From contig CACHEI010000001.1 of the NCBI GenBank assembly GCA_902578815.1, positions 62,001-126,000 on the forward strand: a stretch of DNA of 64,000 bases. Direction: 5' to 3'. The number at the start of each line of letters is the position of its first letter. Positions within the stretch are counted from its first letter, which is position 1. This DNA comes from an uncultured SAR116 cluster alpha proteobacterium (GTDB taxonomy: Bacteria; Pseudomonadota; Alphaproteobacteria; Puniceispirillales; Puniceispirillaceae). The notes beneath the pieces are model-generated. The model ran no database searches. It was not told the origin of the DNA and worked only from the letters and a program-made list of their open reading frames with translations. Shown here piece by piece: positions 1 to 17,068 of this stretch. Position numbers and translations under genes: made by a program.

Positions 1-310
1 TATCCGCTGTGGCATTTGTTACACATTTGTTTACTAGGAAAACATTTTTCAATTCAGAGTGGGTTTTGATTAGTGTTTGAAATAAATGTGGCACCGGTTC
101 AACAAGGCACACTTTCCCATACTCTGCGGCCTCTTTAACAAAGTATTTTGTTTTTACACCGTTGTGAGCACCAATCATCAAAAGGGCATAGTCTTTAGTA
201 TTTTCGAGAGCGAACCCTCTATAATAGCGCGGGTTGAATGGACGCTGTTTTGAACGAATTGGAGCTTCAATTCCAATTTTTGCCAGCAACTTTTCAAAAA
301 TAAAGCTCAT
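1..310 (-). CDS. FkbM-family methyltransferase, N-terminal part (cut by window edge)
   Basis: The minus strand from the ATG at 308-310 stays open to the left edge (103 codons), so the gene continues outside the window. About residues 37-50 read LLMIGAHNGVKTKYF, which resembles the SAM-binding motif I of FkbM-type methyltransferases (xDIGAHxG). A VEPVPHLFQTL segment about 20 residues later fits the acidic loop that holds the SAM ribose. Family members O-methylate sugars or small metabolites; the substrate here is unknown. Codon use is AT-rich like the neighbouring TPR genes and unlike the core genome to the right, which supports membership of an accessory island. No strong ribosome site precedes the ATG. 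The C-terminal half cannot be judged. Confidence 0.6.
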   Translation of the reverse strand, partial: MSFIFEKLLAKIGIEAPIRSKQRPFNPRYYRGFALENTKDYALLMIGAHNGVKTKYFVKEAAEYGKVCLVEPVPHLFQTLIKTHSELKNVFLVNKCVTNATAD

Positions 311-730
311 GTTTGTGGATACTTTCTGTGATACGAGAAACTAAAGCTTATTCTGAAAAGGCGTCATTTCTTACAACTGTATACCTTAAGGATAAAGACA
401 AAACCACCTTTGCATATGCTTCTAGCCGTTAAAAATTTACATTATTTTTCAGATATATACTATTGATGGCCAAATTCATTTGGGTTATCAAAAAATGACA
501 GGTTTAGGGAGCAAACTCCTTTATTTTCTCTAAACTTGGTGAATTAAGAGAAAATAATTAAGCTTTACAAAATTTTTGTGATTGCGCTTACAAAACAGTT
601 ACAGTCAACTTATTCTGCGTACGATATTTGTATTAGGAGTTGAACAATTTGTGAATATTAGTGTGATTATCACGAAATTTTGATTTGAACTACACGTGAA
701 AAATGTAAAGCTTTGAGGCGTGGGTTGACA
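311..730. other. AT-rich divergent intergenic region
   Basis: This 420-bp region separates the minus-strand methyltransferase from the plus-strand TPR gene, so it should carry both promoters. I see no reading frame worth calling and no clear sigma-70 promoter. A perfect palindrome, GTGAT-T-ATCAC, lies at 663-673, about 58 bp before the TPR start. It could be an operator, but an 11-bp palindrome can arise by chance in AT-rich DNA. Confidence 0.4.
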
Positions 731-2302
731 ATGCAAATTCCAACAAAAAAAATTGATCCTGATTTAGCTGAGCTAAAAAATATACACGATTTATTTAGCG
801 AAAAAAAATTTGCCGATGCAAAAAATTATATTTTGGCCATTCTCCCACATTACCCAAATTCTGCTCTTCTTTTTAATGTTCTTGGTTTAATTGATTACAA
901 TCTAAAAGATTATGAATGTTCAAAACAAAACTATTACAAAGCAATAGAGCTTAAGCCAAACTTCCCTGATCCGCTAAATAATCTTGGAATGGTAGAAAGA
1001 CTGCTGGGAAATTATCAGGTGGCGATTAATGCATTCAAAAAGTCAATCATACTTAAACCTGATTACTTAGAGGCATTTTTCAATTTGGCAAATCTTTATT
1101 TGCAAATTTCTGACTTTTCGCAGGCGGAGATTAATTACAAGTTCGCCTTGGAAATAAATCCAAGGTTTACCCAAGCATCACAAAATCTTGGTGCTACGTA
1201 TTTGAAAATGGGACGCAAAACAGACGCTGCTAATATATTTAGATCAGCCTTAGAATATTCACCAAATGACACTGATATCTTATTGAGTTTGGGTGGAGTG
1301 CATAAGGATACGGGGGAACTTCGCCAATCGTTAAAATGTTACGAGAAAATTCGAGAAAATAATACCGATCATGTGGAGTCATTTGCTCGCTGGATGAGTC
1401 TTAAGGTTCAGTTGGGTGACTTTTCAGCAATTAACACTGCGTTGATATTTCACGTCTCCCCATCATTAGCTGAAAAGCTTGAAAACCACCCTCGATTTCA
1501 AATTTATAAATCCATTTTCGATTTTTTAGTTAAGGACCTGGAATCTTGTAAATACCATTTAGAAAGATACGCTCATATACAGTCGATGAATGAAGCAATT
1601 AGCCTATCAGATAAAAATCGTCAATTTTGTAATGCTTTTTACGGCATACTGTCTCGCTTGGTCAAAAAAATATCATCAGATGACTTGAAAACGAATAATG
1701 AGGTATTTCACTTTGGAGAGAGCCATTGCCTCAGTTTTGCACATCGTTTGATCACAAAAAACGGTCTCCAAAAATACATTACACCGGTGATCACTTTTGG
1801 CGCGAAAGCATTTCATTTTTCCACGCAAGAAAACAACAATTTCAAAGCAATAACCTTGCAAAACCTGAACAGAATCCCAAGAAAATCAGACGTCTTTTTA
1901 TCTTTTGGAGAAATTGATTGCAGGTTTAGCGAAGGCATTCTACCAGCGCAAAAAAAGACAAACGCAAAAATTAAAACGCTAGTTGAGAAAACAGTTGATG
2001 GTTACGTGAAGTGGTTTTTAGATTCCAACACCAAAAATAACCATTCATTTTGGTTCTTTAATGTCCCCGCACCAGTTTTCCGTAATGATCGATCATCAGA
2101 CGACAACGAGGCAGTAGCGGAAGTTGTAACGATTTTCAATGACAGGTTGGTTTCTAATTTAGGAAAAAATCATTTGCGATTGATTGATGTTTACAGTGGA
2201 ACGAATAATAATCTCGGGTTCTCCAACCTCAAACACCACATCGATGGCATCCACTTGGGTGACTCTATGATCACTGAAATAGAACATCAGCTTTTTGCTT
2301 AA
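731..2302 (+). CDS. TPR protein with C-terminal SGNH-hydrolase-like domain
   Basis: A 523-residue protein. The N-terminal half (about residues 10-225) is a run of 34-residue tetratricopeptide repeats with the usual N-x-L-G and A-x-x-x-F/Y-x-x-A-L/I-x-x-x-P pattern. A linker of about 100 residues follows. The C-terminal part has three spaced motifs that fit an SGNH/GDSL fold: FHFGESHC near 327 (block I, Ser nucleophile), SFGEIDCR near 392 (block III-like) and IDGIHLG near 503 (block V, Asp-x-x-His). This suggests an esterase or acyl/sulfo-group hydrolase acting on a partner or glycan held by the TPRs; that role is inference. I start at ATG 731, with GAGG at 715-718. The same frame also opens at TTG 713. 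Composition is AT-rich, matching the island. No signal peptide is visible. Confidence 0.65.
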   Translation: MQIPTKKIDPDLAELKNIHDLFSEKKFADAKNYILAILPHYPNSALLFNVLGLIDYNLKDYECSKQNYYKAIELKPNFPDPLNNLGMVERLLGNYQVAINAFKKSIILKPDYLEAFFNLANLYLQISDFSQAEINYKFALEINPRFTQASQNLGATYLKMGRKTDAANIFRSALEYSPNDTDILLSLGGVHKDTGELRQSLKCYEKIRENNTDHVESFARWMSLKVQLGDFSAINTALIFHVSPSLAEKLENHPRFQIYKSIFDFLVKDLESCKYHLERYAHIQSMNEAISLSDKNRQFCNAFYGILSRLVKKISSDDLKTNNEVFHFGESHCLSFAHRLITKNGLQKYITPVITFGAKAFHFSTQENNNFKAITLQNLNRIPRKSDVFLSFGEIDCRFSEGILPAQKKTNAKIKTLVEKTVDGYVKWFLDSNTKNNHSFWFFNVPAPVFRNDRSSDDNEAVAEVVTIFNDRLVSNLGKNHLRLIDVYSGTNNNLGFSNLKHHIDGIHLGDSMITEIEHQLFA

Positions 2303-2911
2303 TTGAGTATTTCTACGCGCCCCTAAAAGAGATCAGGAAGCTCAAATAAAATTAATACCAGTACCCATTAACCACTGTAAAATGACGGGTTATTTTATCC
2401 ATCTTTTGCTTCTTCCATGTAATCCGATAGAAAACACAGCCAATTACACGAAACTTAGCCCAAATTGCGCTGGACATTTCAGCGATTAAAATCGTTCATC
2501 AAAAAGTTATTTTGAGTTCTGTTGTTGAATTTAAAGGATATATATGAAAGGCATTTTGGTTTGGTATTTTATCGTGAAGTTTTACCCACTTCTCACGTTT
2601 GAACATACGTCTAACTGCTTGCCACTAAACGTTAAAATTATTTAATAATTCGCTTTTACTGAAGTCTTTTTGTCAATCACGCCGGGGTTGTGGGTGTTGT
2701 CATTAATTGGTTTTGGTATAGCATATCGCTGGAACAAGGCTTCTAATATTTGGGTGGACACTTGAACTTATCTCTGCCACCTGTTTGGTTTGTCTAGCTG
2801 GCAAGATTTCGATTGCACCATCCAAACTCGCGCTTCTAATATCAAAATTTCTGGATGATTTCTCATGAAATGTGATTTTTTAGTATAATTTTATGTGATG
2901 TTTTTTTGGAT
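2303..2911. other. Gene-free stretch between two convergent TPR genes, possible gene relic
   Basis: This 609-bp AT-rich stretch has no intact gene. One frame, 2544-2765, begins with ATG after an AAAGGA site. It is interrupted by two adjacent stops (2643-2648) and ends at 2763. The second piece reads FLSITPGLWVLSLIGFG, a hydrophobic helix that vaguely recalls the end of acyltransferase-3 membrane proteins. A decayed membrane acyltransferase is possible but poorly supported. I see no convincing terminator for either flanking gene. Confidence 0.25.
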
Positions 2912-5050
2912 TTATCCAGGCATTAAATCGAATGACACGATGATTCTTTCATCGTTTGTTGAGAAGGGAATCGTCTCGTGATACAGCGATGATGGAAAAA
3001 GAACTATGTCCCCCACATTTGGATTATAAATTACCTCAGGCGCAACTATATTGGGGAATTTTGGATTACCAAGACTGAACTTTATAGCGCCTTCATCTTT
3101 ATCCAATGGGGGAACTACTTTTAAATAAATGACACCGCTTAACCAACCGTCTTGATGAATGTGCATCGTATTGTAGCCTTGTTCCTTTAGCACGACGTGC
3201 CAGCCTTTTATTCTTTTTTGATTTGGCCAGTCGTTCACAAATGTGCAGTCCTGCTCCCTAAATTTTTCGTAGTAAATGTCGATTTCATTAAAAATGATTG
3301 TTCTTAAGGCCATCACGTTTTCTTTTGGAAAATTAAATAAGTTACTCGATGTCTGAAACCCTCCCCGAACCGATTGCGCGTTTGGTTGCCAAACTTTTGG
3401 AACAGAATGCAAATCATCAATCACCCTTGTAACAAAAGATTTTGTATTTCTCACATGTTCTGAAATGTTTGAGAAATATAAGTAGTCAAGCGAATTACCA
3501 CAGAATTTATTTTGAAAAGCTTTTTTCTGAGTTCCCTCCATAAATGATGCGAATGCTGCCACTCCCAGATTGTGAGCGTCCACATCTGCCGTTTCCTCAA
3601 GACGCTGATAAATTTCAGCAGTTTTTCCAAGGGAGAACAGGCATTCTAGCGAATGCAATCGACTATAAAAGGTGTTATAAGTGTCGTAAAGTTTGAGGGC
3701 CTGTTCATATTTTTTTTGCCTGTAAAAAATACCGGCTTTGCTGATCATTTTTGGAGAGTGTATTGGTTCAAGTGACGCATATTGCCTATAACAATCCTCA
3801 GCTTCCTCAGTCAGACTCAATTCCTGAAGAACAACACCCAAATCGTCATACGCACCTGCATAATCAGGCTTTAAAAGGATGGCTTTTTCAAAACAGGATT
3901 TAGCCTCAGTTAAATTGCCAATCTGCTTGAATAAAGCCCCCAGATGCTGATGAGCCTCTGGTAGGTCATCTCTAGATAAAATTGCATTTTTGCAACTTGT
4001 AAATGCAGCATCAATGTCACCTAATTCTTCTAAAACCCTGCTTAAATTAAGATGGGCATTTGTATAACTAGATTTGAGCGATAGGGCTTGTTTAAGGCTT
4101 GTTTCAGCATCACGCAACCTACCCATTTCTTGAAGAGTAATACCAAGATTATTATGAGCTTCGGCGTACTTTGGCTGCAACTCTAATGCTCGCCGATAAC
4201 TTGTCTCGGCCTCCTGTAACTGTCCTTTTTTTTGATAAATTATGCCCAGATTGTTATGAGCTTCAGCAAAAGTCGGTTGCAACTCTATCGCCTGGCGGTA
4301 ATTTTCCTCGGCTTCGTTTATTTGACCCAGTTGTTTTTTGATAACGCCTAAATTATTGAATGGTTTTGCGGATTTCGATTTCAGTTTTATCGCCCGCTCA
4401 TAACTCTTGGCGGCGACGTTTAGCCGTCCCAATTCTTGAAGAGTAATACCTAAATTTGTATGGGCCTCCGAGTCGTCAGGGGCCAATTCAACGGCTTTTT
4501 CATTGGGTATCAAAGATTCCTTTAGCCGGCCCGTTCGTTTCATCACTGCACCTAGGACCTTCCATGCGAGCTCATGCTCTGGAAACTTTTTTGTCATAGA
4601 TATTGCTTGTTTTTCAGCGGATTCAAATTGTCCAGTGTTGAAAAAATTCAATAAATTTGAAATGTCAAATTGAGAAGGATATATTCCATCAGCCACATTT
4701 TTCAACTGATTCCATTGGGTCGCAAATTCCTTTGAAGCAATACTATTATTTTCAACCTCTGATATTGCTTCTTTTGCCTGTGTGAAACGCTCGATTTTAA
4801 CTAGTGCGTTCACATAATTTAACCAGAACTGCTCAGATTTTGGGTCTTCGTCTAATGCATTTTTTAACAAGGCAATAGCGTCTTCATTTTTATTTAATGA
4901 AACTGCTATTAAACCCAGATTATGGTTTGCTTGAGGATGTTTTGGCTTGGAACGCAGTACAGATTTATACAGCTTCTCGGCTTCTCCAAGATTTCCTTTT
5001 TGATGAGCCTCAATTCCGCGTTGCAGTGTTTGTTCGATGGTTAGTTCCAT
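2912..5050 (-). CDS. TPR protein with C-terminal 2-oxoglutarate/Fe(II) oxygenase domain
   Basis: A 712-residue protein. It has two TPR blocks, about residues 5-100 and 130-460, many with near-consensus repeats (AEAHNNLGI...GQLxEAExxYRRALELQP). The last 190 residues form a double-stranded beta-helix oxygenase. The HxD pair is H632-x-D634 in MHIHQDGW, the distal iron ligand is H691 in LYHETIPF, and the 2-oxoglutarate-binding Arg is R702 in ERIIVSFD. All four key residues are present, so the domain should be active. The fold matches the putative 2OG-Fe(II) oxygenases often fused to TPRs in marine proteobacteria. The substrate is unknown; a hydroxylation of a protein or surface-polymer precursor is inference. 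It is convergent with the TPR-SGNH gene. No signal peptide is seen. Confidence 0.75.
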   Translation of the reverse strand: MELTIEQTLQRGIEAHQKGNLGEAEKLYKSVLRSKPKHPQANHNLGLIAVSLNKNEDAIALLKNALDEDPKSEQFWLNYVNALVKIERFTQAKEAISEVENNSIASKEFATQWNQLKNVADGIYPSQFDISNLLNFFNTGQFESAEKQAISMTKKFPEHELAWKVLGAVMKRTGRLKESLIPNEKAVELAPDDSEAHTNLGITLQELGRLNVAAKSYERAIKLKSKSAKPFNNLGVIKKQLGQINEAEENYRQAIELQPTFAEAHNNLGIIYQKKGQLQEAETSYRRALELQPKYAEAHNNLGITLQEMGRLRDAETSLKQALSLKSSYTNAHLNLSRVLEELGDIDAAFTSCKNAILSRDDLPEAHQHLGALFKQIGNLTEAKSCFEKAILLKPDYAGAYDDLGVVLQELSLTEEAEDCYRQYASLEPIHSPKMISKAGIFYRQKKYEQALKLYDTYNTFYSRLHSLECLFSLGKTAEIYQRLEETADVDAHNLGVAAFASFMEGTQKKAFQNKFCGNSLDYLYFSNISEHVRNTKSFVTRVIDDLHSVPKVWQPNAQSVRGGFQTSSNLFNFPKENVMALRTIIFNEIDIYYEKFREQDCTFVNDWPNQKRIKGWHVVLKEQGYNTMHIHQDGWLSGVIYLKVVPPLDKDEGAIKFSLGNPKFPNIVAPEVIYNPNVGDIVLFPSSLYHETIPFSTNDERIIVSFDLMPG

Positions 5051-5175
5051 TTTATCTTTACCAAACTTGCAAGTATCTTATTTCTTAACATTGATTTTAA
5101 TGACTTTATTTTTTAAATCAAAACCACCAATCCTCACGTTACAAAAATTTATCCTTTTCAGGAAGAAAAAGATCA

Positions 5176-5826
5176 TTAATGACGATCAAACAAGGCCAGA
5201 AAGTGAATAATCATTGGTTCCAATGCTAGTATTTCTTTGCCGCGCAGAGCTGTTTCCATCGCAAAAATTATCGTTGGCAGGGCGTAATAGTTGCTCTGTT
5301 GTCTTGCAGCATCGGGGATTAGGTCGAATTCGCCAGCCTGCAAATGGCGTTCGCGTCGTCCACTTTTCCTAGGCATACACATTTTGCTGAAGATTTGGCT
5401 CCGGCGCCACAACCCATTCGTTAGAAGCAACATCTCAGTAATGCTGTAAAATTCCAATATCACGCACAAGTTTACTAGCCTTTACCTTTGCTAGCCTCAA
5501 ATCACAGTAGGTGCACGCGGCTTCCTGGGTGACATTATGCAACTGACGGTCGGCAATGTTTTCCTGGAGGAAGCGATCGACAATCCCGGTTTCTATCGAC
5601 TTCGATATTTTAAACGCGATCACGGTGTATTTGTACCGTTCTAAAATGTCACGTAAAGTTGTAACGGTTGGCCTGTGTTCGTCTTGCCTATTGATAAATT
5701 GGTATTCGGCATTCCGTGCCCAACTCTCGGCGCCTCTTTTGGTGCGAAACTCTTGGACATTGATGGGTGGTCAGCAATGTAGATTTGAGCTTGCCAAAGT
5801 TTGCCGCGTTTTCGAATTGTAGCCAT
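5176..5826 (-). pseudogene. Decayed tyrosine recombinase (phage/island integrase)
   Basis: Joining three frames on the minus strand restores the first two thirds of a site-specific integrase. The start is MATIRKRGKLWQAQIY at 5826. After a frameshift near 5725 the frame continues AESWARNAEYQFINRQD, then TTLRDILERY and ETGIVDRFLQENIADRQLHN, which is the SAM-like core-binding domain. An in-frame TGA follows GILQHY (about 5435), the frame runs on as DVASNEWVV, and it then ends in TAG. A second shift gives RRERHLQAGEFDLI and FAMETALRGKEILALE, corresponding to the start of the catalytic domain around its first Arg. The rest of that domain, with H-x-x-R and the Tyr nucleophile, is absent. The gene is therefore dead. 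It lies about 114 bp from the 3' end of tRNA-Gly, the usual place for an island integrase. Confidence 0.85.
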
Positions 5827-5939
5827 TTTAGACTGCTCTGTGACAAACACTGTGAAAGTTGTCCAAAATCCGAAAGCACCAGGCTATCAGACCAAGGCGG
5901 AATTGCGCTTTAATCTATTGACTACACTCGATTGAGATT

Positions 5940-6014
5940 TGGAGCGGGTGAAGGGATTCGAACCCTCGACCCCAACCTTGGCAAGGTTGTGCTCTACCAC
6001 TGAGCTACACCCGC
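5940..6014 (-). tRNA. tRNA-Gly (GCC)
   Basis: The minus strand folds as a complete tRNA. The acceptor stem is GCGGGTG/CACCCGC, the D-arm region is TAGCTCAGTGGTAGAGC, and the anticodon loop CTTGCCAAG gives anticodon GCC. The T-arm contains GGTTCGAATCC, the discriminator base is T, and CCA is encoded (complement of 5940-5942). Its 3' end faces the integrase relic, so the tRNA probably served as the attachment site. I looked for a second copy of the 3' tRNA sequence further left in the window and found none. Confidence 0.97.
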
Positions 6015-6297
6015 GTCGCATCTGCTATTTGTGGCGTGTTACGGTTATTGCAGACCACTATTCGATGGTATAATCCAAGCGCCGAAACCTTGCAAGCGAC
6101 AAATGGCTTGCTGTTTAGTGATGCACTAAAAGCCAGCCGCGCCTATTTCTGCTGGTGACACCGAGCTGTCAACACTGGCCCGATCTATTTTTTGCTTGTC
6201 TGTCATTTCTGGTCGCCCAGAGCCGCAGGGTGACCTTTAGGTACTAAATTTACACTTTACGCAGAACCACCACAATGTGGTCATACAGAAAGCGGAT

Positions 6298-7434
6298 TTA
6301 TCCTGCGCTCTGGAGCGCATCCTTCAAGGCGGAAACAATTGTATTTTGTGTGTCCGCATCTAGATAAGGGTGCATTGGCAATGACATTACGCATTTGCTG
6401 AGCCTGTTGGTGGTCTGCAGCGTACCGCCAGCAACCGGAAAATGACTGTAGGGTGGTTGGCAATGCATCGGCACAGGGTAATAGATGGCGGTCGGCACAC
6501 CAGCTGCTTGCATGTTTCTGCTGACAGCATCACGGTCAACACCATCCGGAAGTTTGATTGTATATTGGGCCCAGCTTGATGATGCGCCGACGGCGAGGCG
6601 GGGCGTTTCAACGCTGTTGCCAATTTTGTCCTGATATCTGTCAGCGACCAGCTGGCGCAGCGCCAGCTCCTCGGCAAAAATATCCAACTTGGCGTCAAGC
6701 ACCACAGCCTGCATTGTATCGAGCCTGCCGGTCATGCCGATACGGACATTCTGATATTTATTAACGCCCATGCCGTGAACTCGGCAGGACCGGATGATCT
6801 CAGCGATGCCATCATCGTCGGTGAAGACAGCCCCACCATCGCCGTAGCAGCCAAGTGGTTTTGCAGGGAAAAAGCTGGTGCATGTCACATGCGCCAGTGT
6901 TCCAACCTTGTGACGGTTCATGCTCGCGCCAAAACTCTGTGCGGCATCATCGATAAGCCATAACTTATTTGCCTCTGCATATTGCATTAATGCTTCATAA
7001 TTAGCGGGCTGCCCAAACAGGCCGACGCCTATAATACCGACAATGTTTACATCAGCATCTCTTGCCGCTGCGTAGGCAGCATCGAGTTGGGTTGGATCGA
7101 TGTTGAACGTCACCGGGTCTACTTCAGCGAAAACCGGAATGGCCCCCATGACAGGCATGACCTCGGCGGTTGCGGTGTAGGTAAAGGAGGGCACGATGAC
7201 ACCCTGCCCAGGTTCCAAGCCAAGCCCCTTCAACGCAAGTATTAGCGCATCCGTTCCCGAAGAACAGGAAATATTGTTTTTGGCTCCAGACCATTTTGCA
7301 AGCCTTTCCTCCAGTGCTGTGATTTCTGGCCCCATGATATAGGCGCCATGATCCAACACAGCAGCTAAGCCGGTGTCAATCTTGTCACGAATGCGGGCCT
7401 GCTGTGATTTCAGATCAATGAAGGGAATGCTCAT
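6298..7434 (-). CDS. DegT/DnrJ/EryC1 sugar aminotransferase (WbpE-like)
   Basis: A 378-residue PLP enzyme. Recognisable parts are SSGTDALILALKGLG (cofactor phosphate loop, near 58-72), VPSFTYTATAEV, LIDDAAQSFGA with the pyridine-binding Asp (near 160), and SFFPAKPLGCYGDGGA, where Lys in PAKPLG (near 188) forms the internal aldimine. The family transfers an amino group from glutamate to a keto-sugar nucleotide. Pairing with the adjacent Gfo/Idh dehydrogenase recalls the WbpB/WbpE step that makes 3-amino-3-deoxy-UDP-GlcNAcA, but the exact substrate is uncertain. It starts directly after the stop of the upstream dehydrogenase (TAA then ATG), so the two are cotranscribed and probably coupled. GC content is like the core genome, not the island. 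Confidence 0.85.
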   Translation of the reverse strand: MSIPFIDLKSQQARIRDKIDTGLAAVLDHGAYIMGPEITALEERLAKWSGAKNNISCSSGTDALILALKGLGLEPGQGVIVPSFTYTATAEVMPVMGAIPVFAEVDPVTFNIDPTQLDAAYAAARDADVNIVGIIGVGLFGQPANYEALMQYAEANKLWLIDDAAQSFGASMNRHKVGTLAHVTCTSFFPAKPLGCYGDGGAVFTDDDGIAEIIRSCRVHGMGVNKYQNVRIGMTGRLDTMQAVVLDAKLDIFAEELALRQLVADRYQDKIGNSVETPRLAVGASSSWAQYTIKLPDGVDRDAVSRNMQAAGVPTAIYYPVPMHCQPPYSHFPVAGGTLQTTNRLSKCVMSLPMHPYLDADTQNTIVSALKDALQSAG

Positions 7435-8433
7435 TTAACTAGTCCTGTTGGGGCGTTTGGGTGTTTCGGTTTTGCCCATGTCAAGCAAGGTTGCCTGCAT
7501 GGCCTCCAAGGTGCGCTGCACCGCCAACGCCTCGTTGATATTGCTGGCACCCGGTTTGCCCGTCAAACAGCTGTCTATGAAGGCGCGCATTTCATCCTTT
7601 AGTGGTTCGCCCTCAGCAACCGGAAGCGCTACTGGACTGGCACGCTCGATAATGAAGCTCTCATTGTCAGGGCGAATGTGATCCTGAAAAAGCACTAGCT
7701 TTTCTGGCCACGCTTTGGTGTCATCAAAAACAAGTGATCCGGCCGTGCCGCTGACTATGAGACGATGTTCTTTGTAGGGTGATATCCAGCAGGTCTGTAG
7801 GCTCGCCGAGACACTGTCCGCAAAACCAAGCATTGTTGCTAGAGTATCAACGACTCCAGGGGTGACATGGCTGGCACCTGCACAACTGATCTTTGTCGGC
7901 TCAGAACCAGTCAGCGCCTGAATTAGTGAGAGGTCATGGGGACATAAATCAAAAAGGACGGATTCAGTGTTACGGATCCGCCCCATCGCCAGCCTATTTG
8001 CCTGGATATGTCTTAATGTTCCAATGGCACCCGCACGAACCTGTGCTTGCAATTCAATGAAGGCGGCATGATAGCGAATCAGGTGACCGACCATCACCTG
8101 TCGGCTGTTCCTTTTGGAGGCGGCAGCGATTTTCTGCGCACCGGCAAGTGTCAGAGCCAGTGGTTTTTCAACAAAGACATGCTTGCCAGAATCGAGAATG
8201 CGAGTCGCAAGATCCACATGGCTTGGCGTTGAGGTGGCAAGCACTATACCGTTTATATCCACATCCCCAAGCAAAGCGTTAATGGATTTGGCTGTAACGT
8301 TGAATTGGGCGGCGAATTCCTGGGCGCTGGATCGCACTCTGTCCGCAACACCAGCCAAAACCCCCAGCTGCGCAAGATTGCGCGCAAGATTGCGACCCCA
8401 CATGCCGCAGCCAATTAAACCTATATTTGCCAT
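7435..8433 (-). CDS. Gfo/Idh/MocA-family NAD-dependent sugar dehydrogenase
   Basis: A 332-residue oxidoreductase. The N-terminal Rossmann fold has IGLIGCGMWGRNLARNL (G-x-G-x-x-G, about residues 5-21). The signature EKPLALT with its catalytic-site Lys lies near 92-98. The C-terminal alpha/beta domain includes DLCPHDLSLIQAL, whose HD pair is typical of WbpB/MviM-like members. It likely oxidises C3 of a UDP-sugar to supply the keto substrate for the next gene, a DegT aminotransferase; this is inference from pairing. I start at ATG 8433 (MANIGLIGCG) because it sits right before the nucleotide-binding strand. The same frame also opens at TTG 8445. The gene is divergent from the YbaK-like gene. Confidence 0.85.
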   Translation of the reverse strand: MANIGLIGCGMWGRNLARNLAQLGVLAGVADRVRSSAQEFAAQFNVTAKSINALLGDVDINGIVLATSTPSHVDLATRILDSGKHVFVEKPLALTLAGAQKIAAASKRNSRQVMVGHLIRYHAAFIELQAQVRAGAIGTLRHIQANRLAMGRIRNTESVLFDLCPHDLSLIQALTGSEPTKISCAGASHVTPGVVDTLATMLGFADSVSASLQTCWISPYKEHRLIVSGTAGSLVFDDTKAWPEKLVLFQDHIRPDNESFIIERASPVALPVAEGEPLKDEMRAFIDSCLTGKPGASNINEALAVQRTLEAMQATLLDMGKTETPKRPNRTS

Positions 8434-8580
8434 GTGAAACCGCAATATTTAATGCTACAAGAGGTGTACGGCGGCACTTAAATCGCGTCAATAGTTGCAT
8501 TTTGTAACATTCGGTTGAGGATGGGTGTTGGCTTTAGCATCCTGCTGCCTTTTGTATCCATCAAAATTAAGGAACCAAAG

Positions 8581-9099
8581 ATGGACGCTTCATCCGCATT
8601 CAAAGATAGCCTGCCAACAACACCGGAGTCGCTGATTGGCAAACTCGAATCCCTCAATATTGTATTTACCTCGCACCATCATCCGCCGTTGCGAACAGTT
8701 GAGGAGTCAAAAGTGTATCGCGACAACATGCCGGGTATGCATGTGAAGAATCTCTACCTGCGTGACAAGAAGAAGCGCAACTATCTGATTGTTGCCGATG
8801 AGGATCGCGTGATTGATCTGAAATCGCTGCATGCCATCATCGGCTCAGACCGACTGTCCTTTGCCAGTGCTGACCGCCTTTTTGAGATGCTTGGCGTCTG
8901 CCCGGGTGCGGTGAGCCCGTTTACCCTGATTAATGATCCCAAACACTTTGTTAGCCTTGTGATCGATGCAGAGTTGATGATGGCGAAAAGACTTTATTTT
9001 CATCCGCTGGTCAATGACATAACCTTGGGAGTAACGCCCGAGGGGTTGTCGCGCTTCCTCGCGGCTACAGGACACCAGCCGCAGCTGATCAACTTCTGA
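8581..9099 (+). CDS. YbaK/ProX-type aminoacyl-tRNA deacylase
   Basis: A 172-residue protein of the YbaK/EbsC (INS-like) superfamily. It most resembles the free-standing prolyl-tRNA editing proteins (ProXp-ala/PrdX), which remove alanine wrongly attached to tRNA-Pro in the cytosol. Visible marks are TSHHHPPLRTVEES near 25-38, KNLYLRDKKKRNYL near 56-69 with the conserved Lys, SFASADRLFEMLG and CPGAVSPFTLIND. ATG 8581 is preceded by AAGGAACCAAAG, a good ribosome site, and gives normal family length. The frame also extends upstream to TTG 8515 with no support. It is a single gene, divergent from the sugar pair. Confidence 0.85.
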   Translation: MDASSAFKDSLPTTPESLIGKLESLNIVFTSHHHPPLRTVEESKVYRDNMPGMHVKNLYLRDKKKRNYLIVADEDRVIDLKSLHAIIGSDRLSFASADRLFEMLGVCPGAVSPFTLINDPKHFVSLVIDAELMMAKRLYFHPLVNDITLGVTPEGLSRFLAATGHQPQLINF

Positions 9100-9317
9100 A
9101 CGTTACATCGTGCTCTGGAAATCTGTTCATGAAATAGATATACGCTGGATATCTACCAGACACTTCTTTGTCTTTCCAAAACCCTTGTTTCGTCATTTTG
9201 GACACCTAAATTGTAGTCATGGTATCCACAGGCGATGTGCTCAATTTCAGCTTTTAATGGTTCCCACTAGTTGCACGGGAAATCGACATCCGCCAAGATT
9301 CAGATTTTGAGGGGAAA

Positions 9318-10217
9318 ATGGAACAATTACTCTCGGGCGCAAGCAACACGTCTGTCGATGTGGACATGAACAACTTCATGGCTGAGGTGATTGAAGGATC
9401 GTCCATCTCGCCGGTCGTAGTACAATTTTGGGCACCATGGTGTGGTCCCTGCAAACAGCTAGGGCCGGTTCTTGAAAAGGTGGTTGCCGGCAACGGAGGT
9501 AAGGTCAAGCTCGTCCGTATCAATATTGATGACAACCAGCAGATCGCCCAACAGATGCGGGTACAGTCAGTTCCCACGGTTTATGGTTTTGTTGATGGAC
9601 AGCCAGTCGATGGTTTTTCAGGTGCACAGCCTGAGTCAGCGGTTACACAATTCGTTGAAAAGCTAGCATCAATGGGTGGTACTGGGGCTGATGTGGCAGA
9701 AATGCTGACTGCAGGAGAAACAGCTCTGGCGATGCGGGATTTTGATGCCGCCATGGGGCATTTCCAACAAGCCAAGGGCCTCGAGCCCGAATCAATTGTG
9801 GCGCTTGCGGGTGTTGTTAGATGCCTAACCGGAATGGGTGATGTGGCCGGAGCGCGCGAGGTAATCGATCAGCTCAATGATGAGTATCGCGAACATGAGG
9901 CAATGCAGTTGGCAATAAGCGCACTTGACCTTACAGAAAAGGCATCGGCGTCTGCGGATGGACTGGATGCCGCAAGGGCGGCGGTCAAAGCTGATAGCAA
10001 TGATCTGGAAGCGCGGCAGACACTGGCGATGGCACTCTATGCCGGCGGCCAGCACGCCGAAGCCATGGACCAGCTGCTTGAATCGATCAGGGCTGATCGC
10101 GCCTGGAATGATGAGGCTGCTCGCAAGCAGCTTCTTGAGTTTTTTAAGTCTCTGGGAGCTGCTAACTCCGATGTGATGAAAGCGCGCCGCAGGCTGTCAA
10201 CGGTTCTGTTTGCTTGA
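9318..10217 (+). CDS. cnoX: Thioredoxin-TPR protein (CnoX/YbbN-like co-chaperone)
   Basis: A 299-residue protein with a thioredoxin domain (about 10-115) holding the active motif FWAPWCGPCKQLGP, then a helical TPR-like region (about 125-299) with 'LAMRDFDAAMGHFQQAKGLEP'-type repeats. This layout is that of YbbN/CnoX, which binds unfolded or oxidised proteins and passes them to GroEL and DnaK. E. coli YbbN lacks the CxxC pair; this one keeps it, so reductase activity is likely, as in other alphaproteobacterial homologues. ATG 9318 follows GAGGGGAAA. The next gene, a LON-domain protein, starts 40 bp downstream, so the two are probably cotranscribed with the small genes that follow. Confidence 0.85.
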   Translation: MEQLLSGASNTSVDVDMNNFMAEVIEGSSISPVVVQFWAPWCGPCKQLGPVLEKVVAGNGGKVKLVRINIDDNQQIAQQMRVQSVPTVYGFVDGQPVDGFSGAQPESAVTQFVEKLASMGGTGADVAEMLTAGETALAMRDFDAAMGHFQQAKGLEPESIVALAGVVRCLTGMGDVAGAREVIDQLNDEYREHEAMQLAISALDLTEKASASADGLDAARAAVKADSNDLEARQTLAMALYAGGQHAEAMDQLLESIRADRAWNDEAARKQLLEFFKSLGAANSDVMKARRRLSTVLFA

Positions 10218-10257
10218 GGTCACGCGGGGGGTTAATTGGTTACAATGAGGTTTTTTA

Positions 10258-10902
10258 ATGAATCCACTTACATTTGAATTTCGCGACCTGCCGCCAACCT
10301 TGCCGTTGTTTCCATTGCCGAGTGCCTTGCTGTTGCCGGGATCACAGCTGCCACTGAACATTTTTGAACCACGTTATCTTGCAATGGTTGAGGATGCGTT
10401 GCAGACGTCTGAACGCATGATTGGCATGGTGCAACCGCTTAATGATGAGGGTACCTTGTTTGATGTGGGCTGTTCTGGTCGAATTACCTATTTTCAGGAA
10501 AGTGGAGACGGACGGTACATGATTGCCCTGACTGGTATCTGCCGATTTACGCTGCAGGCAGAACAACTGACTGATCGTGGGTATCGCAGGGCGACTATTG
10601 ACTGGGGTAGCTTTTCCGATGATCTGAAATCGAAAGATGACAGTGTCGCCGATCGAGAAAAGTTGTTGGACGTGATGAAACAGTATTTTGGTGTCATGGG
10701 TTTTGAGGCGGACTGGACGCAGATTGAACAGTCTGGCAATGAGCAGATTATGAACACGCTGGCTGCGGTCTGTCCATTTGACGTTGCAGAAAAACAGGCA
10801 TTGCTGGAGGCGCAAGGGCTGGCCAAGCGGGCTGATCTCTTGATCGCCATCATGGAAATGGCGCTACATGAAGAGGAAAGTGGCAATGACGCACGGCATT
10901 GA
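10258..10902 (+). CDS. LON substrate-binding-domain protein
   Basis: A 214-residue protein consisting only of the N-terminal (PUA-like) domain of Lon protease. [20 protein letters not shown] and [13 protein letters not shown] near 15-45 are diagnostic, and the C-terminal third is helical. It has no AAA or protease domain, so it is not a Lon fragment but the stand-alone family widespread in alphaproteobacteria. Its function is not firmly known; a role in protein quality control is suggested by the thioredoxin-TPR gene directly upstream. It overlaps the following Trm112-like gene by 17 bp. Confidence 0.85.
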
Positions 10903-11116
10903 TGATAGAAATGTCAAGGATGACCCGACGCAGCTTGTTGACAGCCGTCTACTTGCTGTCCTCGTTTGTCCGGTTACCAAGGGTCCGCTTGAATATGATG
11001 TGCAAAACAATGAGTTAATTAGCCACCAGCTCGGCAAGGCATTTCCTATTCGCGGCGGTGTGCCGATCATGCTTGTTGATGAGGCACGGGATCTCAATGC
11101 GAAGGGTAGCCAGTAA
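10886..11116 (+). CDS. Trm112-like small zinc-ribbon-type protein
   Basis: A 76-residue protein. The core reads [16 protein letters not shown], then [17 protein letters not shown], which is the YcaR/Trm112 pattern. In eukaryotes and archaea, Trm112 activates methyltransferases. In bacteria the role is uncertain. Only one Cys (VCPVTKG) remains, as in most bacterial members, so zinc is probably not bound. ATG 10886 is chosen because GAGGAAAG lies just upstream and it gives the usual length; ATG 10868 is in the same frame. It begins inside the end of the LON gene, implying translational coupling. Confidence 0.8.
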
Positions 11117-11117
11117 G

Positions 11118-11498
11118 ATGGATGCCTTAGCAGGCCAGATTGCCAGCCGGCGCTGGCCGACCGAAATCCGCCTGAGCAGCGATAAACGCCGCCTGAATGT
11201 CAGTTTTGATGATGGAACAGTTACATCAATAAAAGCTGAGTTGTTGCGGGTTGAATCACCCTCGGCAGAGGTTCAGGGACATGGCGTTGGACAGAAGACA
11301 ACGCCGGCTGGAAAGCGAAATGTAACGATTAGCCGCATTGATCCGGTTGGTAATTACGCCGTCCGCCTAGCCTTCAGCGACGGTCATGACACGGGCCTAT
11401 TTACTTGGGACATTCTTCATGATTATGGCCAGCGCCATGACAGCCTGATGGCCAATTATGAGAGGCGCCTAAATGACTTGGGCCAGAGCCGCGGCTAG
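11118..11498 (+). CDS. DUF971 protein (gamma-butyrobetaine hydroxylase N-domain-like)
   Basis: A 126-residue protein. WPTEIRLSSDKRRLNVSFDDG at the N-terminus and NYAVRLAFSDGHDTGLFTWDIL near the middle are the hallmarks of DUF971. This is the domain found at the N-terminus of gamma-butyrobetaine hydroxylases and, alone, next to Fe-S or chaperone genes. The stand-alone form has no proven enzymatic role. ATG 11118 lies 1 bp after the stop of the Trm112-like gene. The gene is convergent with the Ubi-type hydroxylase, with only 3 bp between stops and no room for a terminator. Confidence 0.8.
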   Translation: MDALAGQIASRRWPTEIRLSSDKRRLNVSFDDGTVTSIKAELLRVESPSAEVQGHGVGQKTTPAGKRNVTISRIDPVGNYAVRLAFSDGHDTGLFTWDILHDYGQRHDSLMANYERRLNDLGQSRG

Positions 11499-11501
11499 AT
11501 T

Positions 11502-12743
11502 TTACCTCCAACGCTCATCCCTTTGCGGTAATTTACCGGCAAGAAGGTTGGCCTGGGCAAGTATTCCACCACGTGCAATTGCTGAAAAAACAGATTTTGC
11601 TGGTGATCGGTTGAGCAGGCTCATCCCTAGCCCAGCAATCCTTGCTATGCCGGAAGGCATTGTGGTGAACAACGCGTTCAGGCTTGTTGTCGCAAGGCTC
11701 ATTGCCCCCACCTCAAACTGGCGTTTGTGCCTATAGTCGGCTAACACCGAGAGATGGCTTGCCGGCAGACCCCGTGCGCTGGCTGTACACAGAATATCAA
11801 GTAGTACCGCCGCATCGCCCAAAGCCAGATTATATCCCTGGCCAGCAAGCGGATGAATGACATGCGCAGCATCGCCTGCAAGGATCAGATTGTCGGCTGT
11901 CGGATTGGCAATGAAGGCTGGCTTCAGTGGCCAGACAAGGCGGTCTGATTGCAGGTTGAGGAACCCCAGCTCATCACCAATCGCCGCGGTGATTGCCATA
12001 TTGAATTCATTGACATCACATGCCTGATATCGTGATGCTTCCTGTTTTGGCAGGGTCCAGACAAGTGACATCAGATTGTTAGCCAGTGGCATCAGCGCGA
12101 TCGGGCCGGAGGCCAGAAACCTCTGAAACGCCGCGTTACTGTGGGGTTGTTCGGTGGAGATGAGCGCAACCACTGCTGTTTGCCTGTGTGGCAGCTTATG
12201 TTGCCTGATTCCGGCGGATTTGCGCAGTAGGCTGTTGGGGCCATCGCATCCCACAACAAGATCACAAATAACACTCTCAATAAGTCCCTTGTCATTGACA
12301 AGTGTCAGCTCTGCCTGCTTGTTGACGATGGTGGAACCAGCCACCGTTCTGTTGGTCAGGCGTTCGACATCCGCATTCCGCATATGACGCTCGAGCGCTG
12401 CCAACAAAGCGGCGTTTGGCACAACGAAGGCCATTGGCTCATCCTGGTCTTGCCATTCAAGATCAAAGGCATTGCCACGGCGCGCCTTTGAGCCAGCTGA
12501 CGGCTCGCCATCGGCAACTTTCAACGCCTCAATGGGTGTTGGTACCGCGGTAAGATGCTGCCAGACACCAAGCGTCTCCAGCATGCGCTTGCCGGAAGCA
12601 CTAATTGTCGTAGTGCGGATTGTCTCGCCATCACCATCTCTTTGTTGGCACTGGACATGTGCTACCTGAAAGGGGCTATGTGAAAGTGTCAGGGCTGTTA
12701 TCAGGCCTGTTAACCCCCCACCAACAACCACGATGTCTGCCAT
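11502..12743 (-). CDS. UbiH/COQ6-family FAD monooxygenase
   Basis: A 413-residue flavoprotein. IVVVGGGLTGLITALTL (GxGxxG, residues 4-20) binds the ADP part of FAD. The DG motif is in LVVGCDGPNSLLRKSAG (near 165). The second FAD motif GDAAHVIHPLAGQGYNLALGD lies near 290-310 and is typical of ubiquinone hydroxylases. It should hydroxylate a ring carbon during ubiquinone synthesis at the inner membrane face. Which position (UbiH, UbiF, UbiI or the broad UbiL type) cannot be told from the sequence. Its ATG overlaps the stop of the upstream gmhB-like gene by one base (TGATG), so the two are coupled. Confidence 0.88.
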   Translation of the reverse strand: MADIVVVGGGLTGLITALTLSHSPFQVAHVQCQQRDGDGETIRTTTISASGKRMLETLGVWQHLTAVPTPIEALKVADGEPSAGSKARRGNAFDLEWQDQDEPMAFVVPNAALLAALERHMRNADVERLTNRTVAGSTIVNKQAELTLVNDKGLIESVICDLVVGCDGPNSLLRKSAGIRQHKLPHRQTAVVALISTEQPHSNAAFQRFLASGPIALMPLANNLMSLVWTLPKQEASRYQACDVNEFNMAITAAIGDELGFLNLQSDRLVWPLKPAFIANPTADNLILAGDAAHVIHPLAGQGYNLALGDAAVLLDILCTASARGLPASHLSVLADYRHKRQFEVGAMSLATTSLNALFTTMPSGIARIAGLGMSLLNRSPAKSVFSAIARGGILAQANLLAGKLPQRDERWR

Positions 12744-13279
12744 CAGAAACGCTCCATCAGCAAGTGAGGAAAATGCTGGTCCAAAACATGTCTTGCAAGC
12801 GCATGTAGGTCTGTCCCGTCGAAAAGATAGGCATGGCAGCCAGCTGCTCTGCCGGCGGCAACATCGCTGTCGCGGTCACCAATCATTACCGAATTTGCAA
12901 GATCAAGCGACCATCTCTTTGCTAGATCCATAATCATAAGGTGTCCAGGTTTACGGTATGGGCAGGGCGTCAAGAGAGTGCTGATGACAGCTTCTGGGTG
13001 ATGAGGACAGAACGCAACATCCTTTATGTGACCGCCGTGCGTTGCTGCTTCAGAAATCAGATGATTATTGAAGCGGTGCATGTCATTTTCCGTGAAAAGG
13101 CCTTGACCAATACCGCCCTGATTAGTGACGATAAAGACATCGAGCCCGGCATCGCTGAACAGCCGCAATGCTTCAGGTGCGCCAGGCACCCATCGAAAAT
13201 CGGCCAGTTTATAAGTGTACCCCACATCGACGTTCAATGTGTCGTCCCGATCAAGAAATATCGCTGGTTTGTTTATCAT
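12743..13279 (-). CDS. gmhB: GmhB-like HAD phosphatase (heptose 1,7-bisphosphate / histidinol-P family)
   Basis: A 178-residue HAD-superfamily phosphatase. Motif I is FLDRDDTLN (nucleophile D10 and acid D12), with VTNQGGIGQG (motif II) and MIGDRDSDVAAG (motif IV). The family dephosphorylates D-glycero-D-manno-heptose 1,7-bisphosphate for LPS core synthesis. Two deviations stand out. The usual DRDGT is DRDDT here. The zinc loop, normally CxH...CxC, reads CPHHP...CPYRKP, so the last Cys is replaced by Tyr. Metal binding may be lost or changed, or the substrate may differ. No other heptose gene is in the window. It heads a two-gene unit with the Ubi-type hydroxylase. Confidence 0.75.
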   Translation of the reverse strand: MINKPAIFLDRDDTLNVDVGYTYKLADFRWVPGAPEALRLFSDAGLDVFIVTNQGGIGQGLFTENDMHRFNNHLISEAATHGGHIKDVAFCPHHPEAVISTLLTPCPYRKPGHLMIMDLAKRWSLDLANSVMIGDRDSDVAAGRAAGCHAYLFDGTDLHALARHVLDQHFPHLLMERF

Positions 13280-13488
13280 CTCGTCTCTGTTTGAAAACCT
13301 AACACAACACCTGCATTGCTATGTCAGTCAATGATATGGCCGATCAATGAACTGATTTTCTTACTCGCATTGCTCAGATTCTATAGATGCGGTAACAATT
13401 GTCACAGTCACTTTATTGCCGCATTGGTAAATTATTTGATCATCATGGTACGCTTTCTTTGTCCTCGCCACGCATGGGTTTTAACTCA

Positions 13489-14697
13489 ATGAGACTTAAC
13501 CCTGACTATCACATATTCGACGCCAACATGTTCATGCAGCTTCGGGCCGCACTTGAGGGCATTCCTGCGCCGGCTGGCATGGACATACTTGATTTGTCGA
13601 TCGGTGAGCCACAGTTATCGAGCGGACAATTGTTGACTGATAGCGTTGCCGTTCACAATGGAAATTGGCAGTTCTATCCCAAAGTGTGGGGTACGCCTGC
13701 CTTCATCGACGCTGTATGTGGTTATATCAGACGCCGCTGGCCTGCTGCAGCAGGTCTTGCCAGACTGCGCACGCAGATTTTACCGGTACCCGGTACTCGC
13801 GAACCGCTTGCATTGCTCGGCGGTCTGGTTCGCAACACAAAGCCAGATGCTGTGGCGCTGGTTACAAACCCATTCTATCACGCCTGGCGCGCGGGGGCGC
13901 TAGCAAGCGGGGCAGAGATTGCCTTTATCGACAGTCACAAGAACAATGATTTTATTCCTGATCTCTCGGCCATAGCGCCTGGCATGCTGGACCGGACAAT
14001 ATTGATGTATCTGTGCAGCCCAACAAATCCACAGGGACGTGTTATGAGTCTGGAGTATCTGCGCTATGCGCTTGGCTTGGCACGTCGACATGATTTCCTA
14101 CTGGTGATGGACGAATGCTACGCGGATATCTGGCGTGCGGATAGAGCGCCACCTGGCATGCTTGAGGCGGCCATCAGCCTTGCAGAGGATGACGGGGATC
14201 CGCTGCGAAATCTTGTTGTGGTGAACTCGCTCTCTAAGCGGTCGAGTGCGGCTGGATTGCGGGCTGGTTTCATCATCGGTGACGCCAGCGTAATCACCCA
14301 ATATGGCAACATTGTCGCAAATGGGGGATCGCTTGTTCCTACACCACTATTGGCGGTTGCGGCAGACCTCTATTCAGATGACTGTCATGTCGAGGTGATT
14401 CGGGCGCATTATGATAAATCCTTTTCCATCGCTAGACACTATCTCGGCATTGATCCACCTCCAGGTGGTTTTTTCCTGTGGCTTGAGGTTGGTGATGACG
14501 TTGCATTTGTTCGCCAATTGATGGCCGAGCAGGGCGTTCGGGCGTTGCCGGGCCAGTTCATGGGCGCGCCCGGTGCTGGGTCAAACCCTGCTGCCGGCTT
14601 CGTGCGGTTGGCGCTTGTTCATGATCATCCGACGATTGAGGATGCCATGTCCAGGGTTGCTCAACTTTGGCGAAAAGATGATCAGAAGATGGTCTGA
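13489..14697 (+). CDS. dapC: Class I/II aminotransferase, probable succinyldiaminopimelate transaminase (DapC)
   Basis: About 402 residues. It has the class-I fold marks DLSIGEPQ (near 33-40), [11 protein letters not shown] (near 181), [10 protein letters not shown] (near 207) and [16 protein letters not shown], where the Lys forms the PLP Schiff base. This combination matches DapC-type enzymes of alphaproteobacteria, which transaminate N-succinyl-2-amino-6-ketopimelate in the lysine/peptidoglycan pathway; a DapF gene lies 7 kb away. The start is unsure: the frame opens at TTG 13399, with ATG at 13474 and 13489. I choose 13489 because the family usually begins about 15 residues before the first helix. 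No start has a clear ribosome site. It is followed by ftsK within 8 bp. Confidence 0.75.
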
Positions 14698-14704
14698 CAG
14701 CGGC

Positions 14705-17068
14705 ATGGTTAATTCTGAAATCAAAAAACCGATCCTTTCGCCGATGCTCTCAAAATTTCTGTGCCGGCGTTTCATGGAGCTCCTTGGTGTCCTGCTACTG
14801 CTGTTTGGCGCTGTTTTGCTCATTTCGCTTGTGTCTGCCAGTCCGGGTGACCCCTCGATAGGCGTTGCGTCAATGAATGAAACCGCCAATTTCCTGGGCG
14901 TCACCGGCGCTAATATTGCCAATTTTCTCGAGCAGATGCTGGGCTATGCCGCCTATGGAGTTGCTTTCTTCCCGGTCTGCTGGGGATACAGACTGATTCG
15001 CAAGCAGAAAATCAGTCAAAAGCGCTTCCGGCTGATTGCCGCGCCAATCGCCATGGTGCTTTTGGCTATTGGCTTTTATGGCATAGGTGGCGGTGATGCC
15101 GGAATTGAGGGTGGCGGTGAAACCACTGATGGTGGTGCTCTTGGCAAGATTTTCTTTGATTTCGTTGCATCGCTTATTCCTGATTTTCCTGGGGTTGCAG
15201 GGCTGACGAAAACGCATTACGTCGGTATCGGTCTTGGGCTGTTGGGACTCGTCGTCTGGGCCTGGTCGGCGGCGCTGTCACGAGCCCAAATAATTCTTGT
15301 CGCCGCGCCAATAGGCTGGTGTTTCAGCGGAGCGAGAAAACTCGTGACATTGCTACTCCCTTTTGCTGCCGAACCTGTTAAGGCTACTGACCAGCAACTA
15401 TTAACAAAACCAAAGCGTAAGCGCCTGATGTCTGGCCATAAGAAGCAACGCCAGGAACCGATTCTTGTAGCTGGTGCAACGCCTCTTGAAAGCAATGTAG
15501 CTGAGGCTCAAAAACGTTCAGCTAGCATGCAGGGAAGTTTGGATTTTGGATTGGGTACAGCTTTCAAGCTGCCTGCAAAAAGTCTTTTGAAGACGCCGGC
15601 AAAGGCAGCAGCTGGGCCATCGAGGCAGGAGCTTGCAAAACGAGCTGCCGATCTGGAAATTGTACTCTCTGATTTTTCCGTCAATGGCAGCATTGGCGAC
15701 TCGCGCTTCGGCCCAGTCGTAACACGCTATGACCTTAACCCAGCACCAGGCACAAAATCGCAGCGTGTTATCGCGCTTGCGGATGACATTGCGCGTTCCA
15801 TGAGCGCCGTATCAGTTCGCGTGGCTGTTGTCCCCGGGCAGAATGTCATTGGCATTGAACTGCCGAATGAGAATCGGCAGACTGTTCTGCTTCGCGAAAT
15901 TCTCGACCATGGCATTTGGCGTAAGGATCAGAGCGATCTGCCAATGGCACTTGGCAAGGACATTGCCGGCACGCCGGTGGTGGTTGATCTGGCGCGGATG
16001 CCGCATTTGCTTGTCGCAGGAACGACTGGGTCGGGTAAATCGGTTGGCATTAACGCGATGATCATCTCAATGCTCTATCGGCACACGCCTGAGACCTGCC
16101 GGATGATCATGATCGATCCAAAAATGCTTGAATTGTCAGTATACGATGGCATCCCACATCTGTTAAGTCCAGTCGTTACCGATCCATCCAAGGCGGTGAC
16201 GGCGCTGAAATGGGCTGTCCGGGAAATGGAAAGCCGGTACCGCAACATGGCCAAAATGGGTGTCAGGAACATCACCGGCTACAATGAGCGGCTGGCTGAG
16301 GTTCGCGCTGCCAACGAGGTTCTGACGAGGCGCGTACAGACTGGCTTTGATCAAGAGACGGGCAAGCCTGTTCATGAAGAAGAGGTGCTGGATTTGGCCC
16401 CGTTGCCATTCATTGTCGTAGTGATTGACGAGGTGGCTGATTTGATGCTGGTCGCCGGCAAGGAGATCGAAGCGGCCGTGCAGCGCCTTGCACAGATGGC
16501 ACGCGCCGCTGGCATTCATGTGATCATGGCGACACAGCGGCCATCAGTTGACGTAATCACTGGAACGATCAAAGCCAATTTTCCAACACGGATGAGCTTT
16601 CAAGTGACCTCACGCATTGACAGCCGAACCATCCTCGGAGAACAGGGTGCTGAGCAACTTCTTGGGCGCGGTGACATGCTATTCATGGAAGGTGGTGGAC
16701 GGCTGTTGCGTGTTCATGGCCCTTTTGTCGAGGATGGCGAGGTTGAGGCGGTGGCAAATTTCCTGCGGCAGCAGGGTGCACCGGAATATGATGAGCGTGT
16801 GGTGGCGGATGAACAGGCGGATCAGGATGATAAGTCAGTCGCTGGTAATATTGTCGGAAATGGAAACAGCCTCTATGATCAGGCAGTTCAGCTTGTTGTT
16901 CGGGAACAAAAGGCGTCAACTAGTTTCGTGCAGCGCCATCTTAAAATCGGCTATAATCGTGCGGCGACAATTATTGAAGAGATGGAAAGCAGCGGCATCA
17001 TTAGCGCGGCCAATCATGTAGGCAAACGCGAAGTTCTGATTAATGATGATGCAGCGGACGGATTTTGA
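14705..17068 (+). CDS. ftsK: DNA translocase FtsK
   Basis: 787 residues from ATG 14705. The N-terminal part holds four hydrophobic segments (about 20-45, 75-95, 105-125, 165-205) that anchor it at the division septum, followed by a short low-complexity linker. The RecA-like motor has Walker [14 protein letters not shown] near 438 and Walker [13 protein letters not shown] near 569. The last 65 residues are the winged-helix gamma domain ([20 protein letters not shown]), which reads KOPS and activates XerCD; a XerC gene is at 48 kb. The frame is open further upstream inside dapC, but starts there would add unrelated residues before the first membrane helix. It ends in TGATG, overlapping the lolA-like gene. 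Confidence 0.95.

Follow-up and report, generated by a model that had tools for sequence, protein, structure and literature searches.

The tRNA-Gly(GCC) locus

The window analysed here, 64,000 nucleotides in length, corresponds to positions 62001-126000 of contig C1 in a SAR116 draft genome (G000), the assembly of which comprises 2.07 Mb in 82 contigs and is 70% complete. The sole tRNA gene in the window, detected with ARAGORN, is a tRNA-Gly(gcc) on the minus strand (5940..6014), which is recognised as an integration target by the core copies found in relatives; the attachment (att) core corresponds to the final 16 bases of this gene (CCCTTCACCCGCTCCA). The right flank of the site (6298..8445, minus strand) carries two genes, conserved in most SAR116 loci, which we take to encode a DegT aminotransferase and a Gfo/Idh-type oxidoreductase. 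The assignment to the SAR116 cluster follows from named relatives of its DegT gene, which occur in AG-916-C06 (94% identity), MED-G116 (genome G003) and AG-901-J20 (genome G002). In most of the SAR116 loci examined, DegT adjoins tRNA-Gly and a variable stretch lies beyond the tRNA, followed in several genomes by genes that presumably encode UDP-glucose dehydrogenase, galU and phosphomannomutase. The sites of G003, G006 and G027 are empty, the core genes being located almost directly after tRNA-Gly; the order in G003 is tRNA, 220 bp, a small ORF and UDP-glucose dehydrogenase. At the same site in a genome of the same genus (G001, contig C4, 15138-15212, locus L074), the tRNA-Gly body bears the anticodon GCT (Ser), one base from tRNA-Gly(GCC), which could represent a sequencing error or a missense tRNA.

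The two sides of the site differ in composition. The GC content is 0.374 at window 1-5050 versus 0.522 at 6015-17000, so the composition step is real. On the contig, the AT-rich block extends from 58.1 to 67.2 kb (GC 0.378 versus 0.51) and is classified as an insert, of ~9.8 kb, because there are relatives that lack it (e.g., G003). Its five genes encode a TPR-glycosyltransferase, an epimerase, an FkbM methyltransferase, a TPR protein and a TPR-2OG oxygenase. Within the window, Pfam and synteny place the FkbM methyltransferase at 1..310 (minus strand, running past the left window edge), the TPR protein, common to the sister genome G004, at 713..2302 (plus strand; TPR62713), and a TPR protein with a C-terminal 2OG-Fe(II) oxygenase domain at 2912..5050 (minus strand; TPR64912). 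The region upstream of the latter gene (5051..5225, minus strand) is 89% conserved in G004, where its equivalent adjoins the stub of a different integrase.

Several other features were observed at a distance from the site. A second AT-rich stretch (window 17500-20000; GC about 0.37-0.40) displays a strong negative GC skew, and a strong negative AT skew is apparent from about 18500. An intact tyrosine recombinase, possibly of the Xer-type housekeeping kind, is encoded at 48120-48629 (minus strand; open frame of 326 aa; PF00589 at 1e-34). To the left of the window, an AT-rich patch with a 606 aa protein (contig C1 31147-34839) lies ~3 kb from a tRNA-Gln (C1 37635-37709) and is perhaps a second variable locus.

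The remaining feature of the site is a relic of a tyrosine integrase (5221..5826, minus strand), identified by tblastn and PHROGs and assigned to a class, here termed class A, whose intact members are ~320 aa in length and carry PF00589. The relic represents the N-terminal two thirds of such an enzyme (~206 aa), the 3' third of the gene having been lost. In tblastn searches with open integrases, the relic DNA was matched in three colinear blocks (5826-5737, 5755-5414 and 5376-5221), of which the first and third share one reading frame and the second lies in another. The best E-value was 2e-20, versus 0.004 as the best obtained with 20 mononucleotide shuffles of the same DNA. Among the closest open integrases are those of locus L003, on contig C29 of the window genome, and of locus L017 in G004. 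Pfam provided no match for either the relic pieces or the frame-joined reading, and the homology is based on tblastn together with one PHROGs match, that of the frame-joined reading to phrog_1 (integrase) at 5e-5.

The preliminary description had reported a dead tyrosine recombinase with two frameshifts and an in-frame stop, and these lesions agree with the alignment: the frameshifts are situated at the block joins (near 5755-5737, and between 5414 and 5376), and the stop is a TGA at 5437-5435, inside the second block. The reported loss of the C-terminal catalytic part is likewise confirmed, since homology ends just beyond the first catalytic Arg region ('ALRGKEILAL') and the rest of the catalytic domain, approximately the C-terminal third of the protein, is therefore missing; the relic lacks a complete catalytic set (Arg, His-x-x-Arg, Tyr) and does not match PF00589. 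The start codon is located 114 bp from the tRNA 3' end, as stated previously. The intervening spacer (5827..5939, minus strand), which corresponds to the left att arm region (D), has no second copy, inverted or direct, on contig C1. By itself, the relic belongs to a known kind and is unremarkable within it.

Two integrase classes at tRNA-Gly and the probable source of the TPR block

Integrase matches were detected within the first 2.5 kb at 12 of the 34 tRNA-Gly sites that have >150 bp of downstream sequence. Four of these integrases are full-length (G007, G011, G020 and G034), that of G025 is truncated where its contig ends, and the other seven are short or broken; a search of the first 220 bp only revealed further weak stubs in G023 and G068. 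The tRNA-Gly(GCC) gene is thus a multi-class hotspot, in which relatives carry intact integrases of unrelated classes. The second class at the hotspot is characterised by DUF6538 together with PF00589 and a length of ~390 aa. Integrase 5' stubs of 10-40 codons are present at many sites and might serve as functional arms of elements that lack an integrase; the pattern is accounted for in part by the left-arm repeat of G002, which extends into the integrase gene start.

The class to which the relic belongs shows the classical layout. In G020, an intact class-A integrase (324 aa) is located 146 bp from the same tRNA-Gly, and a second complete tRNA-Gly is found 13.2 kb away. Among ten longer class-A loci, nine were counted (L256, in which no integrase was classed as tRNA-adjacent, was excluded); six of the nine carry the tRNA end again in direct orientation, at 4.9-14.3 kb, and none carries it inverted. 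The class-A integrase recombines a short block of identity with the 3' end of the tRNA, which leaves the island bounded by direct tRNA-end repeats.

At the window's own site, the corresponding far repeat is missing. The preliminary description had advised looking for a second tRNA-end copy (attR) to the left; none was found in contig C1 1-126000 (18-mer, up to 3 mismatches) or in the whole genome assembly (25-mer, up to 3 mismatches), nor was an attR found in the 67.9 kb to the left with several core lengths. An inverted-core trace proposed inside the window's TPR block was rejected, since its best match differed at 9 of 24 positions and did not surpass those obtained with shuffles. A 'CATTGG..CCAATG' junction shared by G000 and G004 was also rejected, as an unproven recombination site, because it is a short palindrome and G002 seems to share a little sequence further upstream.

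The complete TPR block was found in one sister genome only, G004, in which all five island genes are 92-97% identical, with order and place kept. The gap between the last island gene and the tRNA measures 385 bp in this genome. The initial 175 bp of this gap align with window 5051-5225 at 89%; the remainder differs and encodes the first 32 aa of a DUF6538-class integrase, 87.5% identical to a live integrase; no class-A integrase trace is present in the gap. In G002, TPR64912 is inverted relative to the tRNA and lies beside another, broken DUF6538-class integrase, between the tRNA and an inverted tRNA-end copy. The inverted att repeats there are 116 nt in length, and the arm outside the inverted att site resembles that of G007 (62 bp, 81%). 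No att arm of either class was detected beside the TPR block in G000 or G004, so that any assignment of a deliverer to the block is tentative.

The relic is quite probably the remnant of a separate class-A element, and the TPR block would have been delivered by another element, probably of the DUF6538 class. Given the mismatch between relic and island in G004 and G002, together with the absence of a second tRNA end, the relic is best interpreted as a decayed element that had reached a shared site independently; the block most likely came from another element, since sister genomes possess it alongside remnants of other integrases in the gap. We infer an order of events in which a class-A integrase would have inserted its own element at the tRNA-Gly(GCC) 3' end; this element would have decayed through two frameshifts, a stop and a deletion that brought the integrase into direct contact with the region upstream of the TPR gene, with loss of the far repeat; and the TPR/glycan block would have been brought in or held by the other element.

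It is unlikely, by comparison, that the relic is the TPR island's own integrase and that the pair forms one old immobilised island. The position and orientation of the relic would suit such an arrangement, as would the composition step at the relic and the ~9.8-kb length of the block, which falls within the class-A range, and the sister's integrase could be a replacement. However, G004 carries the same island with the stub of another integrase in place of any class-A trace, G002 carries yet another, different broken integrase, and the 67.9 kb to the left hold no attR. That the frameshifts and the stop are mere draft assembly errors in a living integrase is very improbable, even for a genome that is 70% complete in 82 contigs, given three separate lesions within 600 bp, the absence of the C-terminal third and the fusion of the gene to a region conserved in G004.

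The preliminary description thus stands with respect to the place, a tRNA 3' end with a dead integrase and an insert, and the comparison that it had suggested with the tRNA-Gly flank of relatives lacking the insert disclosed the empty sites of G003, G006 and G027. Its further claim, that the relic marks or moved the AT-rich block, is not upheld: the refuting case that it had itself named is provided by G004, a relative with the same TPR genes and a DUF6538-class stub instead of the class-A trace, and G002 has another integrase. Viewed as one unit, the relic and TPR block have no far direct tRNA-end repeat, the insert is missing from relatives with intact flanks (the three empty sites), and the cargo in G004 and G002 is accompanied by different integrase remnants. 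The term 'immobilised island' is therefore a fair one for the place, but not for the relic plus the TPR genes as a single unit. A fossil integrase next to a tRNA is thus not necessarily what mobilised the adjoining island, and the comparison of relatives at one tRNA served to separate two integrase classes with different layouts.

Head-to-head layout of the DUF6538-class elements

The DUF6538 class is expanded in SAR116: at E <= 1e-40, it was found in 37 of 61 Puniceispirillaceae genomes, with up to 12 matches each, many of them with stops. Outside the family it is rare and was detected in 5 of 286 genomes of the taxonomic class, and a draw from the phylum yielded 2 of 298 genomes besides that of the window, both in the same taxonomic class. 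Its target tRNAs include Gly, Arg, Thr, Phe, Leu, Asn and SeC.

The elements of this class are arranged as tRNA-core-[D-int-rc(D)]-rc(core)-rc(R)-cargo-R-core. Beyond the integrase, the last 14-18 bases of the tRNA, with 40-75 bases of the left arm (D), are typically repeated in inverted orientation, and the module from the tRNA to this inverted copy spans 1.2-5.8 kb. After removal of duplicate-looking rows (same tRNA, integrase length and aligned residues), an inverted copy of at least 30 bp was present in 26 of 38 tRNA-adjacent DUF6538-class integrases, and in 29 of 41 after the addition of Ruegeria sp. TM1040, G488 and G610. A right arm (R) lies beyond the inverted core, and the same R appears again, in direct orientation, at the far core. 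Among 11 regions, a direct core was present in seven and an inverted core in addition in six, and R matched in all six, with exact identity runs of R plus core of 287, 304, 345, 195, 381 and 188 bp; the R arms at the tRNA-Asn of G005 also agree (99 bp). Overall, the right arms are identical in eight of eight contigs that contain both far cores, over 99 to about 1,130 bp.

A complete head-to-head element is located at tRNA-Phe in Ruegeria sp. TM1040 (complete record NC_008043.1, locus L253, 15850-28677), where the inverted repeats, of 85 bp and 1148 bp, are both 100% identical. The long pair contains a BRO-family gene, which is thereby duplicated, and brackets a type I restriction-modification system. 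At the tRNA-Gly of the relic's site in G007, the inverted copy is found on contig C1, and contig C37 of that genome starts with the same R and core in direct orientation. The window genome has a DUF6538-class element of its own at tRNA-Thr(CGT) (contig C35, locus L222, 5004-8809; inverted copy at +3718). Over 4.1 kb, the module of this element shares 91.7% identity with that at tRNA-Leu(CAG) in G005, the tRNA-end cores being different, which suggests target switching with a matching change of both cores.

The inverted copy is missing in 12 of the 41 cases, six of which have <400 bp of sequence beyond the integrase. Four of the negative cases were still negative with longer flanks (longer by only ~160-190 bp in two of them), and a tRNA-Thr locus (L223) has no inverted copy in a flank of 3.6 kb. 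Also among the negatives is the tRNA-Phe of G010, where the left arm at the inverted core differs but the right arm matches. At the window's own tRNA-Gly, inverted core copies were sought and the head-to-head layout was absent.

Tandem arrays at the same tRNAs (Phe in G010, Thr in G017 and in G020) would be in keeping with a layout that arose as a by-product of neighbouring insertions or of homologous inversion, rather than as a property of one element. We regard such an origin as rather improbable, since the layout occurs in 29 of 41 members of this class versus none of the nine class-A controls with long flanks; moreover, the left and the right arms each pair exactly within one element (the right arms in 8 of 8), and the complete TM1040 record shows the arrangement, as do G010 and G017, each of which is a single-contig genome.

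A number of draft SAR116 contigs end 0-140 bp from tRNA-Gly (L044, L054, L058, L060, L089, L092, L096 and similar loci). Assembly breaks caused by long inverted repeats or by strain variation would produce such ends, and the head-to-head layout, in which the inverted repeats are long and perfect, may explain why contigs terminate at these tRNAs.

The predicted circle and comparison with known systems

Excision between the direct cores of a DUF6538-class element would generate a circle with two identical, inverted R-core-D sites, in which the attP inverted repeats would measure roughly 165 to 1,200 bp. In the yeast 2-micron plasmid, inverted recombinase sites are carried on a replicating circle, and inversion drives amplification. 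An integrase that acted on both sites of the predicted circle would, in a similar manner, invert one half against the other. Such inversion could turn ordinary replication into amplification as in the 2-micron plasmid, keep the arms identical and pair integrase halves with different cargo halves. Some DUF6538-class elements carry primase and helicase-like genes: the G010 element encodes an AEP-TOTE primase with a DUF5906 domain and a small AlpA-like HTH protein, and the G005 element encodes a Prim-Pol and an AAA_25 protein. Because some of the elements encode primases, the predicted circle may replicate.

The integrase was in the normal orientation in 26 of 27 module-bearing sites (counted with loci L101-L160 excluded), and the single flipped case (G002) has a dead integrase. 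Free inversion of the integrase module is unsupported by these numbers (26 normal versus one flipped); a preference for the normal orientation might result from transcription that reads through from the tRNA. No circular forms were found in a scan of a viral contig collection. A phage collection contained only two weak matches, from Microcystis, and a plasmid collection contained one, from Ruegeria TM1040.

It is conceivable, and we propose it only tentatively, that the DUF6538-class elements are of an undescribed kind, with a circle whose two identical inverted attP sites split it into integrase and cargo halves and thereby allow inversion and amplification. Full-text searches of a library of openly licensed papers yielded no account of double att sites placed head-to-head around a tRNA integrase. 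Should the proposal be true, tRNA-integrating elements of common ocean bacteria and a type I restriction system in Ruegeria would ride a bacterial analogue of 2-micron amplification, through which the multiplication of integrated satellites and their exchange of cargo could be tested directly.

Genomic islands borne by tRNA genes and equipped with tyrosine integrases (Islander-type) are known (PMC4383910). The present site resembles them in the integrase beside the tRNA 3' end and in the direct tRNA-end repeats that bound class-A islands; it differs in having a broken integrase and no remaining attR, and in sharing its cargo with genomes that carry other integrases. Direct-repeat tRNA islands and additive flexible genomic islands of marine bacteria are also already known from work that includes the Methylophilaceae tRNA-Lys island (PMC10872708). 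The latter island shares with the elements described here the repeated copies of the tRNA 3' end downstream of the tRNA and the variable cargo; in the DUF6538 class, in contrast, one copy is inverted, with matched long arms, whereas only direct repeats appear for tRNA-Lys in the available sections of that report (PMC10872708). The tycheposons of Prochlorococcus are similar in their tRNA target, tyrosine recombinase and cargo, and some of the elements examined here carry primase genes; inverted double attachment sites are not mentioned for tycheposons in the accessible part of the same source (PMC10872708). The likeness to the Flp/FRT system of the 2-micron plasmid lies in the predicted circle, with two identical inverted recombinase sites and two unique halves, but the elements described here are bacterial, are chromosomally integrated at tRNA genes and employ a different recombinase family.
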